Part shown: positions 2,255 to 20,117 of the stretch, piece by piece
Position numbering within the stretch: position 1 is the first letter of the stretch
Layout of the letters: each line of letters starts with the position of its first letter
IMG/VR virus record: IMGVR_UViG_3300046001_005272
Coordinates: 1 to 21,205 of that record
Reading direction: 5' to 3' (one strand)
Length of the DNA stretch: 21,205 bases
Origin: a virus
Translations under genes and position numbers: made by a program
The notes under the pieces: generated by a model
The model's database searches: none
The model's input: the letters and a program-made list of their open reading frames with translations, nothing else
What the model was told of the DNA's origin: nothing

Positions 2255-2487
2255 GCTACGCCCCGGACCTTCTCAAAGGACTTGATGCCCAGCACGGCGG
2301 CGGCATAGGTCAGCCACGCCACCAGATAGCCCTCGTTCATGGGCTTCTCGATCATGGGGCCGAGGAACCCCGCGTAGGCCGTGCCGATGACGACAACCCA
2401 TCCAGCGGTCGGACGCCACAGACGGTCAAACGCCTGCCAAGCCCAATGCTTACGGATGGGGTGATCGGGGAGGGGGATGTCGGTCAC
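2251..2487 (-). CDS. Holin candidate, 78 aa, two hydrophobic segments
   Basis: A polar, His/Trp-containing N-terminus (DHPIRKHWAWQAFDRLWRP) is followed by two hydrophobic stretches, about residues 29-44 (GWVVVIGTAYAGFLGP) and 52-68 (NEGYLVAWLTYAAAVLG), and a short charged tail. Size and topology fit a small phage holin. The RPTAGWVVV start of the first segment recalls the GTA-type 3-TM holin family, but I would not assign it firmly. Translation starts at GTG 2487, which overlaps the upstream stop by four bases (GTGA), so it is coupled to the 77-aa membrane protein. Its expected role is to permeabilise the inner membrane for the endolysin. Confidence 0.66.
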   Translation of the reverse strand: MTDIPLPDHPIRKHWAWQAFDRLWRPTAGWVVVIGTAYAGFLGPMIEKPMNEGYLVAWLTYAAAVLGIKSFEKVRGVA

Positions 2488-2717
2488 CGGCCAGCCTCCC
2501 GCTCGATGCGGTCGAGCTGTTCCTTCATGGCCTTTGTCCGCTCGTCCAGACGGGCGAGGGTTCCATCGGCCAGCGGGGCAACGACGCGCTCCAGGTTCGA
2601 CACGCGCTGATTAAGCCCGCCGCCCCAGAAGATCAGCGCCGCAGCCTGAACGATCAGGGCGATAATCACCCCGATCATTGACCAGTTCAGTTTGCGGGCG
2701 TCGGAATGCAACGTCAT
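2484..2717 (-). CDS. 77-aa membrane-anchored coiled-coil protein of the lysis region
   Basis: Residues about 14-32 (MIGVIIALIVQAAALIFWGG) form one membrane segment. The rest (LNQRVSNLERVVAPLADGTL then ARLDERTKAMKEQLDRIERE) is charged with heptad-like spacing, so probably a coiled coil. There is no lipobox. The gene is first in a two-gene unit with the holin candidate and lies 111 bp downstream of the tail fibre gene. The topology resembles i-spanins and also small antiholin-like proteins, but a better i-spanin/o-spanin pair exists at 621-1122, so this is more likely a lysis accessory or holin partner. No specific family is recognised. Confidence 0.66.
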   Translation of the reverse strand: MTLHSDARKLNWSMIGVIIALIVQAAALIFWGGGLNQRVSNLERVVAPLADGTLARLDERTKAMKEQLDRIEREAGR

Positions 2718-2828
2718 CAGCGGGTCACTCGCTCTTAAGGGTTAGGCTGTCAGGAAGGGTTGTCGCGCGACCCGGCGGTCACTGTCGGGGCAGGGGTTGG
2801 TGTTCGCGCACCTTCCCCTGCTGCGGCT

Positions 2829-5447
2829 CTATTGCGGCGCGCTGAGGTACTTCGGCGGCATGAACAGGATGTTCCGGTTCGTCGCTGTGGAGCCGTTCGT
2901 GATCTCCACCCGCGTATTGAGGAAGACGCCCGAGTGGTCGTAGTTCGAGGTGCCGAGCGACACCGCGCCGACGAACCATTCCAGCGTTCCCCGCGATGAG
3001 TTCACCGATTCCGGGGTGAGCAGAACGGCAAGGTCTTTCACCGTGGAGGCCGCGCCGGTCGGCAGGGTCGCGCTGGTTGCCGATGCCACCAGTGCGCCGT
3101 TCGTCCAGCAGATGCCGTGGATGAGCGTGTTGGTCCCGTCGTTGCTGATACGGAAGCCCCAGCCGTTCGCCGTCAGGGTGCCGTTGTAGCCGCTGTTCCA
3201 CGCCACCGCGTCCGTGCGCTGGAGGATGAAGGCCAGCGCCTGAGCATCCCATGCGGTCGTCGTGCGGATGCGGACAGCGAAGCCCCGGCTTTCAGCGCGG
3301 ACGTTGCCCTGGTTGATGCCGAGCAGGGTGCCGTTCTGGTTGATGTAGGCACCGACGCCAGACGAAGCGGTCGCGCCCGTGGCGATGGTGATGTCCCCGG
3401 CATTGCCCCGCGCATAGGAGCCTGTGCCCGAGACCGCGCCAGCCCACGCACAGGTCGTAGTGTCGAACGCCGTCGATTGCAGCAGCAGCGCCGGGACGTT
3501 GCTGGCGATCAGCGGGCGTTGGGAGCCGGTGGACGTGGTGACCGGACCCTTGAGGGCAACCGCGCGGTCCGCATAGCCGCCGCCTTGGGGCTGCGAGGGC
3601 AGATAGCCGCGCGAGGCCAGCCAGGTCCGCGTCATCCACCGAGCGATCTCACCGCTGTAGTGGATGCCGTCGTTCTCGTAGCCCGCCGCCGTGGCCTCTG
3701 CCAGACCGCCGGACATAGCCATGCCGTCCAGCACGTCCCAGCCCAGACGGGTGGCGGCGAAGTTGTGGCAGTAGTCCGCCCGCTCGATGATGTCGTCATC
3801 GTCATACGGCGCGTTGTCATAGAACGGGTTGATGACCAGAAGGACGAGCGGGTCATGCGTCAGGCCGGCCCCGCTGATCGCAGTCTCCAGCAGGGGGAGG
3901 AAGTTCTGATACGCCGCAAGCCGGTCGTCCGACTCCACGATGATGATGTCAGGGTCATAAGCCGCGATCTGTTCGGCCTCGATGGTCGCCGCCGTGGACA
4001 GGGTGGCGGTGAAGTCGTTGGACGCCGTGCCGACACGCCAGACGTTGAACGCAGCCGCCGTCGAGACTTCGTGCATCAGGTGGCGAACGCGAACCTTGCC
4101 GCCCGAGGAGTGCGTAACCTTGACGGTCCACGAACCCAGCGCGACCGACAGGGTGACCATCTCCACGCCAAACGCCGCGTTGGCATCAACGATCAGTTCC
4201 GAGCCGGTCAAGGCATGGCCGGACGTGATCTGAGGGGCGGTCGGGTTGACCCACGTTCCGGCACCCAGGGCGGGGGGCGTCGTCGCGTTGGCGATCTCAA
4301 TTTTGACCGAACCAGCACCCGGCTCCGTGATGATCGGGATGTAAATCTTGTCGGCTTGGACCGCGAGGCCACCGATGGAGAAGTTCGACGCTTGGCCGGA
4401 CTCCAGCCAGATCAGGGTGCCGTCCCATCCGGCGTCATAGTCCAGCTTCTCGCGATAGGTGCCGGTGTAGTTGCGCGGAATGGCCGAGGCCGCAGCCGTG
4501 TCGGAGAAGGTGCCGTAGTTCAGGACCGCCAGCGAGTGAGCATAGACGGGCGTGGAGGTCATCCATCCCTCCAGCTCCTTCATCATCTGGATATGCACGT
4601 CGGACCACGTCACGCCGACGAGGCTGTCCCCGATGGCCATGATCTTGAGGGACTTGCGGGTGCCGGCGCGAATGTCAGACAGCGCCTTGCGGAGCTTCAG
4701 CCCCTGCGAGCGGTGGCCCTGCAAGATCGGGGGGACTTGCAGACGGCCCTTGTGGTCTTCAGACGTGCCGAGAACGGCCCCGACCTCGGTAGCCGAGCCT
4801 GCGTCGTCCCGGTAAATGCGGATGACGCCGCTGGTGTCAGGCTCAACCGAGAAGTAGCCACCGCTCGCCGTGGCAGCGAGGCCAGCAGCGGTCGTGGCGT
4901 ACATATTGGAGATGCCGGTCGCGATGTTGGCAGCGGCTTCAGCGCGGTCTGCGTCCGTGTCGGCGGCAGTCGCGGAGGCTGCGGCATTCGTGGCCTGGGT
5001 CGTGGCCGTCGTGGCTGCGCCGGTCGCGGTCGTGGCAGCGCCCGAGGCCGTGGTCGCGGACCCAGCGGCTGCGGTGGCGGACCCTGCCGCAGCGGTGGCC
5101 GAAGCAGCAGCGGCAGTCGCGGAGGCGTCAGCAGCGCCAGCCGCGAACCAGTCCACCGTCACGCTGTAGTCATCGAACACAGCGGGGTTGCCGATGCTCT
5201 CGCCGCTCGCGCCCGTGATGGCCACGGTGTAGAGGACCGCATCGCTTGCCCAGATCGAGGCGAAAGCGCCGGACGCATTGGCCACGACCGGATTGGCCAT
5301 TGGGGTCGTCAGGCCGGAATCCGAGAAGATCGAGGCGGGCGTGGTCGTGCCGTTGGTGTAAACGTACAGCTTCGCCCCGGCCACAAGCCTGTCGTTGCGG
5401 TCCCTTGCCGGGCTGTATTGGGGAACGACGATGCGACCAGCGGCCAT
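2829..5447 (-). CDS. Tail fibre/tailspike with SGNH-hydrolase-like domain, 872 aa
   Basis: Residues 1-100 (MAAGRIVVPQYSPARDRNDR and onward) look like a virion-attachment domain. Residues 102-172 are alanine-rich heptad-like repeats typical of trimeric fibre stalks. A hydrolase domain starts near residue 266 with IMAIGDSLVG (Gly-Asp-Ser275, SGNH block I) and ends near ENDGIHYSGE (Asp593, His596, block V). Between them about 120 residues rich in beta-strand patterns (about 345-460) look like an inserted domain. The usual GxND block III is not clear; VESDDRLAAYQNF is the nearest segment. Residues 650-872 are beta-rich and may form a lectin-like head. The enzyme is expected to de-esterify host surface glycan. 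ATG 5447 has GAGG 6-7 bases upstream, and an intrinsic terminator lies only 26 bp before the start. Confidence 0.85.
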   Translation of the reverse strand: MAAGRIVVPQYSPARDRNDRLVAGAKLYVYTNGTTTPASIFSDSGLTTPMANPVVANASGAFASIWASDAVLYTVAITGASGESIGNPAVFDDYSVTVDWFAAGAADASATAAAASATAAAGSATAAAGSATTASGAATTATGAATTATTQATNAAASATAADTDADRAEAAANIATGISNMYATTAAGLAATASGGYFSVEPDTSGVIRIYRDDAGSATEVGAVLGTSEDHKGRLQVPPILQGHRSQGLKLRKALSDIRAGTRKSLKIMAIGDSLVGVTWSDVHIQMMKELEGWMTSTPVYAHSLAVLNYGTFSDTAAASAIPRNYTGTYREKLDYDAGWDGTLIWLESGQASNFSIGGLAVQADKIYIPIITEPGAGSVKIEIANATTPPALGAGTWVNPTAPQITSGHALTGSELIVDANAAFGVEMVTLSVALGSWTVKVTHSSGGKVRVRHLMHEVSTAAAFNVWRVGTASNDFTATLSTAATIEAEQIAAYDPDIIIVESDDRLAAYQNFLPLLETAISGAGLTHDPLVLLVINPFYDNAPYDDDDIIERADYCHNFAATRLGWDVLDGMAMSGGLAEATAAGYENDGIHYSGEIARWMTRTWLASRGYLPSQPQGGGYADRAVALKGPVTTSTGSQRPLIASNVPALLLQSTAFDTTTCAWAGAVSGTGSYARGNAGDITIATGATASSGVGAYINQNGTLLGINQGNVRAESRGFAVRIRTTTAWDAQALAFILQRTDAVAWNSGYNGTLTANGWGFRISNDGTNTLIHGICWTNGALVASATSATLPTGAASTVKDLAVLLTPESVNSSRGTLEWFVGAVSLGTSNYDHSGVFLNTRVEITNGSTATNRNILFMPPKYLSAPQ
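4932..5144 (-). repeat. Alanine-rich 21-nt/7-residue repeat array in the tail fibre
   Basis: About ten degenerate seven-residue units (AAGSATA, AAGSATT, ASGAATT, ATGAATT and similar) occupy residues 102-172 of the fibre. The DNA shows recurring gcggcagtcgcgg/gtggc-like blocks. Such arrays form extended trimeric stalks and can change unit number by slippage or recombination, giving different stalk lengths. Confidence 0.75.
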
Positions 5448-15606: not shown

Positions 15607-17442
15607 CTACGCGAGCAGCGGATCGCCCGAGAAACCCGGCGGCGGCATGAGGGCGGACTGCTTGAGCATCCCGTCCAGCATTTCGTTTTGTGCCTTCGCG
15701 CCCGTCAGGGCTGCGTCGGCCTCCATTCCAGCGACCTTTGCCTCCGCACCGCGCTTGGCGATGCCAGCCTGTTCGGCCTGCTGCTGTTGTGCTTGCGGGT
15801 CGGTGTTCTGACCCTTGATCTTGTCCATCAACTCGCGCTTGTTCGGCAGCGAGGACGCCTCGAACAGAACCTGGCCCATCGGGCTTTGCAGATCGACGCC
15901 CGACTTGGCCAGTTCCACCAGCATGGCGAACTGCTCTTGCTGGAGGTTGGCCGTGTTCGGAACGCTGTCGAGGATGATGTCGATGTCGAGTTTCGCGATC
16001 TCGTTCTCTAGCCCGAGCAGCGGCTGGCCCATCTGATCGAGAACAGGCGGACCCATTTGAGGCTTGCCGCTCTCATCCATGACCGGCTGACCATCAGGCC
16101 CCGTCACGGGGAACCCTTTGGGCTGGTTCAGGCCGATGAAGTCCGCCACGCCATCATCATCCGTGACCCTGATCCACATCGGGGCCTGCCAGAACTGACG
16201 GGCGCGGTTCCACATCTGCCTATACAGGCGAAGCTCCCAATCCTCGACACCGCCGAAGATGATAGCCAACTCGGTAAGCCCGGCCTGCTGGCGCACCATC
16301 TGCGCCCGGCCCGAACTGTCGGCACCCTGCCGGCCAAGCATCGCCGGGTTAGGCCCCATGCGCTCGATCTCGGCCTTGGCCTCCGCGAGCAAGCTGGCCT
16401 GACCCGACGCCATGTCCGAGGTCGGCACCACCTGAACGCCGGACGGCAGCACACCATCGGGACGCGCGGCCTCCTTGCGGACCAACTCAACGTCAGCCCC
16501 GGCCAGCGCGCCGTACTCACTCTCTTGAACCTGACGAACGCTGACCAGATGGAGCAGCTTGGACCGGCGCTTGTTGATCTCGTCCTGCGGGCCTCGCATA
16601 TCGCGCACCAGGCCGTAACGGTTGTTCTCCCGGTCGATGTAACAGGACTGCGCCTCAATCGGGTTGCAGGGCCGTCCCTTGTCGTCCTGGTAGGGGCTTT
16701 CGGCCTTCGCGAGGACGCCGCCGGAGAAGAACACGCAACGCTGCCAGCCGCCCTCCTTGTGGTACATCTCCACGACCATCAGGCGGCGCTTCTTGGAGTC
16801 CACCCACGCGATCTCGCCATCCTTGGGGCGGTCTTGCATGGAGTCGTCCAGCGGCACGGCCTCACCGACGCCAATCTCAGTCTCCAGAGCCTGCTTGGCT
16901 TCCGGGTAAGCCTCCGCAACGTCGTCCGCATACATCCACTTGGCCACGCCCATGTAGCGGGCGTCGGTCAGGTCGAGCTTGCGGGCGCGCGGGTCGTAGA
17001 AGAATTCCTCATGGCGGATAAGCTCCACCTTGATCTCGTCGTCCGCGTACTCAACGACCGCAGCGCACGTCCCGGCAACCAGATAGTCCTTGGCCCCTTG
17101 CAGCTTCATGTCGTCAAAGCGGTTCTTGTCCGCGATGTAGCGCAGCGATTTTGACGCCACGTCCGCCGCGTCCGCATCCTTCGGGTTACGCGGATAGGCG
17201 CGCGGGTCCGTCTCGCCCTGCTGGATGACACCCAGCGTCCCGTTGATGGCCGGACGAACGCGGTTGAACACAAGGTCAGGCTGCTTGCGGGCCGTCAGGC
17301 TGCGCCGCTCCTCGGGCGTCCACTGATACCCGTCGTAATAGTCCTGGTCGATCTGCGAGTCCTTGCGGGCCGCTTCCGTCAGGGTCAGCGCCTCGGTCAG
17401 CATCCGCTTATAGGTAGCGAGGTCTTTTACGCCGTCCGCCAT
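15607..17442 (-). CDS. Portal protein, P22-like, 611 aa
   Basis: The N-terminus (MADGVKDLATYKRMLTEALT), the DQDYYDGYQWTPEERRSL motif, RKQPDLVFNRVRPAINGTLG and a middle part with RDMRGPQDEINKRRSKLLHL match the P22-like portal family. It forms the dodecameric ring that passes DNA. It is shorter than P22 gp1 (725 aa). The last about 70 residues include a Gln-rich stretch (PQAQQQQAEQAG) and a long helix, recalling the C-terminal barrel of the P22 portal. The start ATG overlaps the end of the terminase gene by 16 bp. Confidence 0.9.
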   Translation of the reverse strand: MADGVKDLATYKRMLTEALTLTEAARKDSQIDQDYYDGYQWTPEERRSLTARKQPDLVFNRVRPAINGTLGVIQQGETDPRAYPRNPKDADAADVASKSLRYIADKNRFDDMKLQGAKDYLVAGTCAAVVEYADDEIKVELIRHEEFFYDPRARKLDLTDARYMGVAKWMYADDVAEAYPEAKQALETEIGVGEAVPLDDSMQDRPKDGEIAWVDSKKRRLMVVEMYHKEGGWQRCVFFSGGVLAKAESPYQDDKGRPCNPIEAQSCYIDRENNRYGLVRDMRGPQDEINKRRSKLLHLVSVRQVQESEYGALAGADVELVRKEAARPDGVLPSGVQVVPTSDMASGQASLLAEAKAEIERMGPNPAMLGRQGADSSGRAQMVRQQAGLTELAIIFGGVEDWELRLYRQMWNRARQFWQAPMWIRVTDDDGVADFIGLNQPKGFPVTGPDGQPVMDESGKPQMGPPVLDQMGQPLLGLENEIAKLDIDIILDSVPNTANLQQEQFAMLVELAKSGVDLQSPMGQVLFEASSLPNKRELMDKIKGQNTDPQAQQQQAEQAGIAKRGAEAKVAGMEADAALTGAKAQNEMLDGMLKQSALMPPPGFSGDPLLA

Positions 17443-18710
17443 GTGTCAGCCTCCCGTCGCGGACGCCCCCAAAGGTCCGGGGGGTTTGGGTTAGCCGTGA
17501 TGACTGGAGCCGGACCCATCTTGCGGAGGCCCTCCAGCGCGTATCGCAGCGCGTCAATCGTGTTGTTGTGCTTGTCTTCCAGCACCGGCAGAACCTCGCC
17601 CGTCTGTGCGTCCACCTTGTAGGAGTAGAGCGTCAGCTCCTCGATCACCGGCTCGCAGCGCGGGTGCACGACGATGTCAAAGCTCTTCAGGAACTCGACG
17701 CCGTCCTCAATCGAGCCGGAACCCTTGATGGCGGATACGATCTTGAACGCCTGCCGGCGCATATAACTGACCGTCTCCGGCCTCGCGCTGTCCGCCGTGA
17801 TCGGCCACTTGCGGCTATCAGGCACCAGGTCAAACAGCGCCGGGGTCTTGTCGATCTCGCAGCCAACCTCTGAGACGCAGTGGTCAACGTAGAGCGTCCG
17901 GCTGTCGAGGTAGCAGCGGACCAGCACGGTCGGGTCAACCGCGAAGCCCCAATCGGCCCCAAACCTGAACCGGGCCTCGCGCGGCGTGTCGAACGCCTCA
18001 ACCCTCCAGTTTCGGAACACCCGCTGCTCACTGTTGCGGGAATACTCACCGAGCCAGACGTGCGCGTATTTGTCGGGGTCGCGAGCCTTGTCCCACTCCA
18101 TCTCTGACTTCAGCGGCTCACCGAACCACGGGTTTTCCGTGTAGTTCACCCGCCGAACTATCGAGCCTGGCGGCGGCGTTCCGCCTCGGAACATCAGGTC
18201 AACCGGGTCTTTATCGCTGTCGGGGTTCCAGTCCCACCAAATCTCCGACCCCTCAGCCCGGATGGTCGGCGTCAAAACCTTGATGCTGTTCTGACTGACC
18301 GTGCGGGCCTCGTTCACATATCCGATGGTGATGCCCTCGGTGGACTTCACGCTTTCGACGTTGGACCGCAGCCCCGCAAAATCAACCGTCGTGCCGTTCT
18401 TTGCCCTGATCTCGTACTGAAGACTCTCGTAAAAGCCGTCGCCGTTCGTCGGGCCGAACCCCATTTGCGGGATTAGGTCGTCCAGCAGAGTTTTGACCGA
18501 GCCGTCGATGCTCTTCTGAATCTCCCGGAAGCAGTAGATGCGCTCCGGTTTCACGAACCCCCGGACCAGAAGCGCGCGGGCGAACCCGTGAGACTTGGCC
18601 GAACCCCGACCGCCGTAAAGCGCCCTATGCCTGACCGGCAGGCCGTCATCGCCTGTTGGCGAGAACAGCGGGAACTCCAGGCACTCCGGCAGGTCCGCTG
18701 AAATCCTCAC
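17427..18710 (-). CDS. terL: Terminase large subunit (ATPase-nuclease), Sf6 gp2/PBSX-like, 427 aa
   Basis: The ATPase domain has Walker A GGRGSAKS (residues 33-40) and a Walker B-like segment ITIGYVNEA with Glu134, followed by WWDWNPDSD. The nuclease domain shows the expected acidic residues: Asp253 in RFGADWGFAVDP, Asp307 in ITADSARPE and Asp386 in NNTIDALRYAL. The layout is that of Sf6 gp2 and the PBSX-type terminases used in headful packaging. It pumps DNA into the procapsid and cuts it. The start is GTG 18710, overlapping the small subunit stop as GTGA. Length is slightly under Sf6 gp2 (470 aa), and nothing appears missing. Confidence 0.95.
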   Translation of the reverse strand: MRISADLPECLEFPLFSPTGDDGLPVRHRALYGGRGSAKSHGFARALLVRGFVKPERIYCFREIQKSIDGSVKTLLDDLIPQMGFGPTNGDGFYESLQYEIRAKNGTTVDFAGLRSNVESVKSTEGITIGYVNEARTVSQNSIKVLTPTIRAEGSEIWWDWNPDSDKDPVDLMFRGGTPPPGSIVRRVNYTENPWFGEPLKSEMEWDKARDPDKYAHVWLGEYSRNSEQRVFRNWRVEAFDTPREARFRFGADWGFAVDPTVLVRCYLDSRTLYVDHCVSEVGCEIDKTPALFDLVPDSRKWPITADSARPETVSYMRRQAFKIVSAIKGSGSIEDGVEFLKSFDIVVHPRCEPVIEELTLYSYKVDAQTGEVLPVLEDKHNNTIDALRYALEGLRKMGPAPVITANPNPPDLWGRPRREADTWRTA

Positions 18711-19144
18711 GCTTCGCCGGGCCGGACAAACCGCAAGACAACCTCGCCCTGCGTCTTGATCGGCGCGTCACCCTCTTCGCCGCCAACGTGCGCGACCTTG
18801 TCGCCGTACTTTTTCGGGGACAGCTTGGAGGCGTACCATTTGCGGGCGTCTATCCGGAGCCGATTGCGCGCCACCTCGACAGCGTCCGCGACCGCCTCGT
18901 CTGAAATCTCGACCACGTCCTCGGCGTAGAAGTCCGCCTGGTTCTCGCGCGCCTGCGCGTACTGCCGCCGAAACTCCGCGCTCCAATCCTCCGCACCCGC
19001 GAGCCAACGGCGCACCGTGGTCTCTGAGGGCATGAAGTCATCGCGGTCTGGACCGACGATCCTCCGCAGGCTTTCGCCCTTGGACATACGCTCACAAATC
19101 TCGTTGGCGATCTCGGGCGTAAAGTCGGAAGGACGACCAATCAT
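18707..19144 (-). CDS. terS: Terminase small subunit, Sf6 gp1-like, 145 aa
   Basis: The sequence GRPSDFTPEIANEICERMSK followed by TTVRRWLAGAEDWSAEFRRQ, a helical core (DEAVADAVEVARNRLRIDAR) and KWYASKLSPKKYGDKVAHVG follows Sf6 gp1 closely (GRPSDY, RLRVDTRKW, PRKYGDK), and the length is almost the same (140 aa). It binds the packaging site and loads the large subunit. The frame is open upstream to 19348, but ATG 19144 has AGGAGG just before it and matches the family start. A pac site may lie in this gene, as in P22, but cannot be read from sequence. Confidence 0.92.
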   Translation of the reverse strand: MIGRPSDFTPEIANEICERMSKGESLRRIVGPDRDDFMPSETTVRRWLAGAEDWSAEFRRQYAQARENQADFYAEDVVEISDEAVADAVEVARNRLRIDARKWYASKLSPKKYGDKVAHVGGEEGDAPIKTQGEVVLRFVRPGEA

Positions 19145-19592
19145 GCGCCCTCCTGTGTGTTGAGGCTGCTCGTCTCGTCTCCCCGTGCTGGCCATTGCCT
19201 TAGCTCCGAACACAGACGGGGTGATCGTGTCTCCCGCGCTTTGGGGGATGGGGTCCGCGCCACTAACCGCTCTTTGCGTAATGCTCTGGGCTTTTCGGGC
19301 GTGTCGGCTGGGCGCGGATGGTGTGGGCCGCTCGGCCAATAACTGCACCGGGTCATGACGCCGGCGGCCACCTGTAAGCGGTGGGCTTCAAGTCCCTAGT
19401 GGGAACTGGACGCAAAAAACTCTGCGGAGAAGCGGCGGGTCATCCCGTTGCCGCTCTCCCGGATCGACGCCCGCCCTCGCTGAAGGCTGTTTTTCTAAGG
19501 GCGCATTGCCCTTTGGCTGGTCCGCGCTCCACGCGTATCACGGACAAAACGAGAACGCAACAGGTTGTGGTGAGAAAAGTTCGGGACCACCA
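19145..19592 (-). promoter_or_regulatory. 448-bp gene-free leader between nusG-like and terS genes, several hairpins
   Basis: No convincing gene lies here on either strand; the open frame extending terS upstream has no coding support. In minus-strand order it holds AAGGGC-AATGC-GCCCTT (19513-19497), the larger hairpin at 19458-19427 followed by six T, a weak hairpin at 19407-19391, CCACC-7 nt-GGTGG (19384-19368) and GGCCG-AG-CGGCC (19337-19326). A weak promoter-like pair TTGCGT-17-TACGCG starts at 19560. The layout (regulator, leader with terminator-like structure, late genes) resembles the lambda Q-PR'-tR' arrangement, but promoter and antitermination site are inference. Confidence 0.45.
19414..19458 (-). 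terminator. Candidate leader terminator, imperfect
   Basis: On the minus strand GAGAGCGG-CAA-CGGG-ATGA-CCCG and CCGC-T-TCTC fold as one interrupted stem of about 12 bp (19458-19427) with a small bulge on each side. Six T residues follow at 19419-19414. The T tract lies 7 nt beyond the stem, farther than in an ideal intrinsic terminator, so this may pause or only partly terminate RNA polymerase. Confidence 0.36.
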
Positions 19593-20117
19593 TTAGGCGG
19601 CTTTCAGCACCTCCTCCAGATGGTCGCTGTCGATCACCGTCTTCCAGTTGAGCGCCGCGTTCAGCATCAGCTCGACCCGGCCCGCATCGGTCGCGGTCAG
19701 CACTTCCCCGATCAGGTCGCGGTAGGGGCCATCCAGCGTCACCTTGGCCTTGTCGCCGGGACGGTAGGTGCATTTGACCGCCGGGGTGTGGTCGAACTCG
19801 CCTGCGAGCTGTCGGGCTTGCAGGTCATAGACGAACCGGGCGTTGATCTCTGCCGGCACACCCATGCCGCACGATACCAGGCCCCGCACTCCGTCGATCT
19901 GGCGGACGTGGTAGAGCGATTGACCGGGGCAGAGGCCAACGAACAGGTAGCCGGTGAACAGGGGTGTATCGACCCGGTCGCGCTTCTTCGTGCGGGTGCT
20001 GCGCTTCCATTTGGTTTCCACCGGGAGGAAGACCGAGAAGCCATGCTCTTTGAGGCCCTTCGCAGCCTTGGCCTCGCAGACGGGGTTCGACTGAACAGCG
20101 TACCACTTGAGCATCAT
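19593..20117 (-). CDS. NusG-family transcription factor, phage-encoded (NGN plus KOW), 174 aa
   Basis: The N-terminal domain is an NGN fold by motif: KWYAVQSNPVCEAKAAKGLK, FSVFLPVE and DTPLFTGYLFVGL (compare PLFPGYVFV in NusG/RfaH). The C-terminal part YRPGDKAKVTLDGPYRDLIG followed by VELMLNAA looks like a KOW domain (about residues 118-155). NusG-type proteins bind RNA polymerase and alter pausing, termination and coupling to ribosomes; RfaH-like paralogues act on specific operons. It stands just before the late-operon leader, where lambdoid phages have Q, so operon-specific antitermination is the best hypothesis. The start ATG 20117 overlaps the micro-ORF stop (ATGA), with GGAG about 6 bases upstream. 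Binding partners cannot be read from sequence. Confidence 0.85.
   Translation of the reverse strand: MMLKWYAVQSNPVCEAKAAKGLKEHGFSVFLPVETKWKRSTRTKKRDRVDTPLFTGYLFVGLCPGQSLYHVRQIDGVRGLVSCGMGVPAEINARFVYDLQARQLAGEFDHTPAVKCTYRPGDKAKVTLDGPYRDLIGEVLTATDAGRVELMLNAALNWKTVIDSDHLEEVLKAA

Follow-up and report, generated by a model that had tools for sequence, protein, structure and literature searches.

A NusG paralogue between the early genes and the late operon of a phage contig, and its leader: a probable late-gene switch

Genes and leader of the window

The window, that is the whole stretch of DNA that was analysed, is a viral contig of 21.2 kb (21,205 nucleotides), and its late operon is encoded by the minus strand. 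The operon opens with terS, followed by terL and a P22-like portal gene (Table 1). No recognizable gene was found in the 448 bp between terS and the gene for a NusG-like protein. The initial annotation had proposed this arrangement, with a NusG-like open reading frame of 174 residues as the last gene before a gene-free stretch and terS, and the profile matches of the two genes (PF02357 and phrog_6386 for the former, PF20901 for the latter) bear it out.

Table 1. Features of the window; positions are those of the 21,205-nucleotide contig.
Feature	Positions	Strand	Evidence
Phage NusG paralogue, 174 aa	19593..20117	-	PF02357, phrog_6386, AlphaFold2, Foldseek
Exchangeable cassette: NusG gene and first 180 bp of leader	19416..20111	-	Window compared with L196
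Gene-free late leader, nusG-like gene to terS, 448 bp	19145..19592	-	ORF list, sequence, folds
TGTTGCGTTCTCGTTTTGTCCGTGATA box directly after the NusG stop	19532..19562	-	Conserved in relatives
Conserved leader element GGACCAGCCAAAGGGCAATGCGCCCTTAGAAAAACAGCC: hairpin GGGC-AATGC-GCCC, then AAAACAGCC	19485..19523	-	Recurs in relatives
GC-rich hairpin GGAGAGCGGC..GCCGCTTCTCC and T6 run	19414..19459	-	Fold
Second conserved leader block	19346..19409	-	91% to L008, 93% to L196
terS, first late-operon gene	18707..19144	-	PF20901, 4.5e-38
terL, Terminase_3 class	17427..18710	-	PF04466, PF17288
P22-like portal, after terL in the late operon	15607..17442	-	PF16510, 2.5e-107

The NGN domain of the NusG-like protein spans approximately residues 4–96 and was matched by Pfam family PF02357 at 59.6 bits (cut-off 22.2; E = 4.5e-16). 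In PHROGs the protein was matched by phrog_6386, 'transcription antiterminator' (E = 6.8e-21). A model was obtained with AlphaFold2 using an alignment of 44 phage relatives of the protein as input. The model has a mean pLDDT of 92 and consists of an NGN fold and a five-stranded C-terminal barrel of the KOW type (approximately residues 123–171), the C-terminal strands having block pLDDT values of about 75–92. In Foldseek the PDB entries that fitted the model best were those of NusG and RfaH; the NGN domain of RfaH superposed at 1.5 Å over 100 columns. Pfam KOW gave no match to the protein, even at E values of up to 1; the combination of NGN and KOW that had first been assigned from the letters alone therefore holds by PF02357 for the NGN domain and by the predicted barrel fold for KOW. 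Residues P52, F54 and Y57 are invariant among the relatives. Tyr-54 of RfaH is thought to contact the β′ clamp helices (PMC2871177), and the three residues, matched by motif, appear to fall in the patch around this tyrosine.

Scores against the curated NCBIfam families were low: 32.7 bits for the housekeeping NusG equivalog (TIGR00922, cut-off 135.7), 55.7 bits for the RfaH equivalog (TIGR01955, cut-off 144.5) and 52.1 bits for UpxY (NF033644, cut-off 100). The protein was absent among the matches listed for LoaP (NF033641), and in Pfam and PHROGs it was matched by families of the NusG type only, with no match to the Q antiterminator families. Because the NusG, RfaH and UpxY cut-offs are missed by far, the protein is taken as a separate branch, and on these profile scores it is placed outside the curated Q, RfaH, UpxY and LoaP families. 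Three host genomes were tested (two Microvirga and one Roseibium), and each carries one housekeeping NusG together with a second, phage-type copy.

The box at the start of the leader is 94% identical to that of the relative L008 over 32 nt, and its first letters, TGTTGCG, stand in the same place in L007, L032, L037, L044 and L048; it is a possible promoter region. The hairpin element that follows recurs in L007, L026, L032 and L037, is kept between proteins of about 31–35% identity, and is a candidate for the place at which the NusG paralogue is loaded. In the GC-rich hairpin, the stem occupies 19459–19426 and the T6 run begins 6 nt past it. The hairpins in the leader that had been noticed initially are seen in the folds. 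The terminator-like element is weak: in a comparison with the nearest relative, L007, the stem is kept and the T run is not, and no intrinsic terminator was called in the leader by terminator finders, strict criteria included. The leader of the window also gave no match to a sigma-70 promoter or to Rfam, and the RfaH ops sequence was absent from it at up to two mismatches; the window gave no ops match beyond chance. In the close relative L008 an ORF of 239 residues (2457–3176, plus strand), which by eye looks like an endonuclease of the GIY-YIG type, interrupts the leader, with the NusG gene on one side of it and the second conserved block on the other.

Position relative to TerL in the relatives

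Relatives of the NusG-like protein were collected by a profile search of viral contigs, and the best 80 of 161 were taken. TerL profiles were built from ORF clusters, the representatives of which were checked with Pfam and PHROGs. All 65 loci with a recognized TerL (the window included, and a few near-duplicates among them) have TerL downstream of the NusG gene on the same strand, and none has it upstream or on the opposite strand; at least 5 kb of sequence is present on both sides in 32 of them. The NusG–TerL distance has a median of 1.40 kb and a range of 0.34–5.85 kb. The Q-like position, proposed in the initial annotation for the window, is therefore found in all of these loci, and with 5.85 kb as the largest distance none of them has the gene far from the late leader, an arrangement that had been named at the outset as evidence against the proposal. 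The same gene order is present in the annotated phages Bradyrhizobium ppBjS10J-1, Labrenzia vB_LagS-V1, Microcystis yong2 and Sinorhizobium phiLM21. Most of the matches in bacterial genomes are without a nearby TerL of these classes and fall in a different part of the tree.

The TerL proteins of the loci fall into four or more Pfam classes (Terminase_3, HK97-type TerL_ATPase/nuclease, GpA and Terminase_6). In a quick tree of the NusG proteins, the window falls in a clade of eight phage rows with 98% support, whose TerLs are of the Terminase_3, HK97 and GpA types. The Terminase_6-type TerL appears in the form of two ORFs of about 240 residues in L017, L022, L028, L060, L205 and L206, and in one locus two such ORFs lie about 3 kb apart; the gene is possibly split, or it may contain an intron or intein.

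Inheritance and architecture of the leader

The contig L196 is a near-twin of the window and shares 98.7% identity with it along the 988 bp that end at the NusG start. Beyond this point L196 has a gene for 187 residues and a different leader sequence where the window has NusG and the initial 180 bp of its leader, and the two contigs match again at window positions 19415–19346 (93%) and 19261–19170 (99%). The second conserved block is kept in L196 despite the replacement of NusG and thus belongs to the late side. The 187-residue protein (L196, 3388–3951, minus strand; relatives in L197–L206) is unrelated to NusG and has no match in Pfam or PHROGs. In 9/9 testable loci its gene precedes TerL and shares its strand, and the family is a second candidate late regulator.

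These data bear on whether the NusG gene is an ordinary neighbour of the late operon, adjacent by chance or passed on together with the late genes. The general conservation of gene order in phages would speak for this explanation, but all 65 loci have TerL downstream of NusG and on its strand, TerL classes are exchanged inside NusG clades, and an unrelated family fills the same slot. These counts exclude a chance neighbourhood, and the explanation as a whole is hardly credible.

Leader elements were also used as DNA-only probes on 2.9 million viral contigs, and the scans returned NusG carriers almost exclusively. Element D matched 17 contigs, 15 of them new; a NusG-like gene ends 77–653 bp upstream in 11/12 of the new contigs with at least 800 bp of upstream sequence, and four TerL groups are found downstream of the element. 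Element C matched 11 contigs, three of which are new, with NusG upstream in all 11. For the window, a pattern comprising a GGGC-AAYGC-GCCC hairpin and AAAACAGCC matched five contigs only, all of them NusG carriers that were already known; since the pattern was drawn from these five, only the absence of other matches is informative. No leader motif common to all NusG groups was found, the elements being group-specific. The comparison of leader and gene across relatives that the initial annotation had called for accordingly indicates that the leader co-segregates with NusG, in L196 as well as for elements C and D and the element of the window.

A perfect copy of element D is present in L180 (1461–1485) with no NusG gene nearby. 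It is flanked by stretches that resemble a broken portal gene, and L180 is possibly a degraded prophage. In L181–L194 a box (GCAAATCAG) stands upstream of element D, and short dyads (TTTAAC-n5-GTTAAA or GTACCG..CGGTAC) lie further upstream; the box is also present in L026, with a near copy (GCAAATCA) in L032. Box and dyads are possible activator or promoter elements.

Group C consists of prophages of Methylobacteriaceae and their relatives. Its leaders hold, in order, a promoter-like pair, a hairpin, the invariant sequence TGCGTTAGC and an intrinsic terminator. The pair, CTTG...TAG(A/T)(A/T)AT, is spaced at a constant 24 nt in 8/8 leaders. The hairpin stem is nearly invariant in 7/8 sequences, and that of L089 is different and one column out of register, so that covariation support is thin. 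In group D, a conserved 25 nt element is followed by a terminator in 10/17 leaders (L180 left out), with differing stem sequences. A putative late promoter with a short terminated leader is clear in group C and likely in group D, and is not seen in the window. By eye only, GCGTTAGC in group C and GGCGGCTTGTGTC in group D resemble ops.

Several group D leaders are matched by the alphaproteobacterial mmgR/suhB sRNA family (RF00519), two of them above the Rfam threshold. Sites resembling RF00519 lie at L191 (7723–7806, minus strand), L185 (8131–8215, minus strand), L179 (5814–5913, minus strand) and L186 (984–1052, plus strand). Either some of the mmgR/suhB copies in hosts may have come from phages, or this sRNA may be imitated by the phages. 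As mmgR/suhB is a stand-alone sRNA in the hosts, the leader could be a separate element, either a promoter or an mmgR-like RNA, with NusG merely the last early gene and acting early or globally, for example by altering host RNA polymerase after infection. The strict position of the gene over at least four TerL classes and the exchange of gene and leader as one block in L196 argue against this, and we consider it quite improbable.

Compact intrinsic terminators were found in 12/58 leaders, with 0.55 expected from shuffled sequences; the controls gave 3/50 for upstream regions and 0/58 for TerL (Fisher P = 0.00025 against the pooled controls). From these comparisons the terminators are real but confined to a minority, to which the window does not belong; 46/58 leaders are without one. 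A universal intrinsic terminator was rejected, since loose criteria gave 26 leaders against 22.8 expected and the enrichment under strict criteria was limited to the minority. The C>G content associated with Rho sites is slightly raised in the leaders; the effect is small and carries no weight in the conclusions.

The main rival to a dedicated switch is a general polarity suppressor, a NusG paralogue that eases the passage of polymerase through the long late operon by antagonizing Rho or coupling transcription to translation and has no dedicated loading site, the leader then being a late promoter and 5′ UTR. RfaH-type paralogues shield long operons from Rho (PMC7819879), and both the lack of a clear intrinsic terminator in the leader of the window and the slightly raised C>G content would fit such a role. 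However, the leader elements follow the NusG lineage and not the late genes. A site-independent factor would have no need of them, and the pairing of gene and leader is left unexplained. We regard this rival as rather unlikely.

Proposed late-gene switch and known systems

We consider it probable that the specialized NusG paralogue is a phage late-gene elongation switch that is loaded onto RNA polymerase in the leader and carries it into the late operon. From its position, the paralogue would be made at the end of the early operon. Its NGN domain, to judge from the fold and the conserved PLF-x-x-Y patch, would bind the clamp of host RNA polymerase. Loading would occur during transcription of the leader and would depend on a short element in it that acts as an RNA hairpin (as for LoaP) or as paused non-template DNA (as for RfaH). 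The modified polymerase would then pass termination or polarity signals, by antitermination, into terS, terL, the portal gene and the remaining virion operon. The signal that is passed may depend on Rho in the window and in the majority of the relatives; the sequence evidence for this is slight. The late genes would in this way depend on the paralogue, which would replace Q as the switch of the virion operon.

This switch is the best explanation for several results taken together: the 65/65 position relative to TerL, with TerL classes varying within one NusG clade; the co-segregation of the leader (the swap in L196, elements D and C, and the element of the window); the leader layout of group C, the terminator enrichment and the short terminated RNA of group D that resembles mmgR/suhB; and the second, phage-type NusG in host genomes, with LoaP as a precedent (PMC12691694). 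Points against it are the leader of the window, which has no recognizable intrinsic terminator or sigma-70 promoter, the 46/58 leaders without a compact terminator, the absence of NusG from L180, the difference in leader elements between NusG groups and the slight Rho signal.

The placement and the matching leader in dozens of unrelated phages suggest a second, NusG-based late-gene switch. It also seems fairly plausible that phages, mainly alphaproteobacterial in this sample, possess a modular NusG paralogue with a cognate leader as a counterpart of lambda Q, a single cassette that recombines onto unrelated virion modules and itself exchangeable for at least one other, uncharacterized regulator family. 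The late antiterminators known from phages, Q among them, are proteins particular to phages, and the known NusG paralogues that are dedicated to single operons act in capsule, antibiotic and conjugation systems. The label and position of the gene have been annotated before in at least one phage, phiLM21, and antitermination of particular operons by NusG paralogues is an established kind of regulation. New are the occurrence across TerL classes, the leader cassette that accompanies the gene, and the exchange of the two together; none of these was found in the open-access literature, which also yielded no account of a NusG paralogue regulating from the Q position. If the proposal is true, it would join the study of phage late control to that of operon-specific NusG paralogues, late-gene control in many phages without Q would be explained, and many natural protein–leader pairs would become available for studying target choice by NusG paralogues.

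In phage lambda, the gene for the late switch Q is the last of the early side and stands directly before the late leader. The gene in the window likewise lies directly upstream of a late leader and the terminase genes, and the promoter-like site, short leader and terminator of the group C relatives resemble pR′–tR′. The protein folds are unrelated, so that the likeness to Q is one of position.

RfaH, UpxY and ActX share with the window protein the NGN and KOW domains, a PLF-type patch with a conserved tyrosine and the context of a dedicated operon (PMC7819879, PMC7593976). The C-terminal domain of the window protein is predicted to be a barrel, whereas that of RfaH is an autoinhibited helical hairpin; the protein is also far below the RfaH and UpxY cut-offs, and its leader has no ops. 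A paper on Helicobacter pylori prophages mentions a NusG-like protein, which is compared with N (PMC11321410). In Sinorhizobium phiLM21 (KJ743987), the gene was labelled 'NusG-like transcription anti-terminator' by the depositors, and the order dnaA-like / NusG-like / ... / terS / terL agrees with that described here. Its product differs in having a C-terminus without an obvious KOW domain; it is known as an annotation only, and no leader or mechanism is described for it in PMC12429752 or PMC5537653.

LoaP is a NusG paralogue of Bacillus for which experiments have shown action through a hairpin and a terminator in the leader (PMC12691694). Like the protein proposed here it is dedicated to an operon, and its leader, with a small hairpin and an intrinsic terminator, has the layout of the group C relatives. 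Its targets are antibiotic operons, whereas here they would be phage late genes, and its hairpin loop is UNCG, whereas the loop in the window is AATGC, with no intrinsic terminator called. By analogy, then, the phage NusG paralogue is best likened to lambda Q in its position and to LoaP in its family and leader layout.
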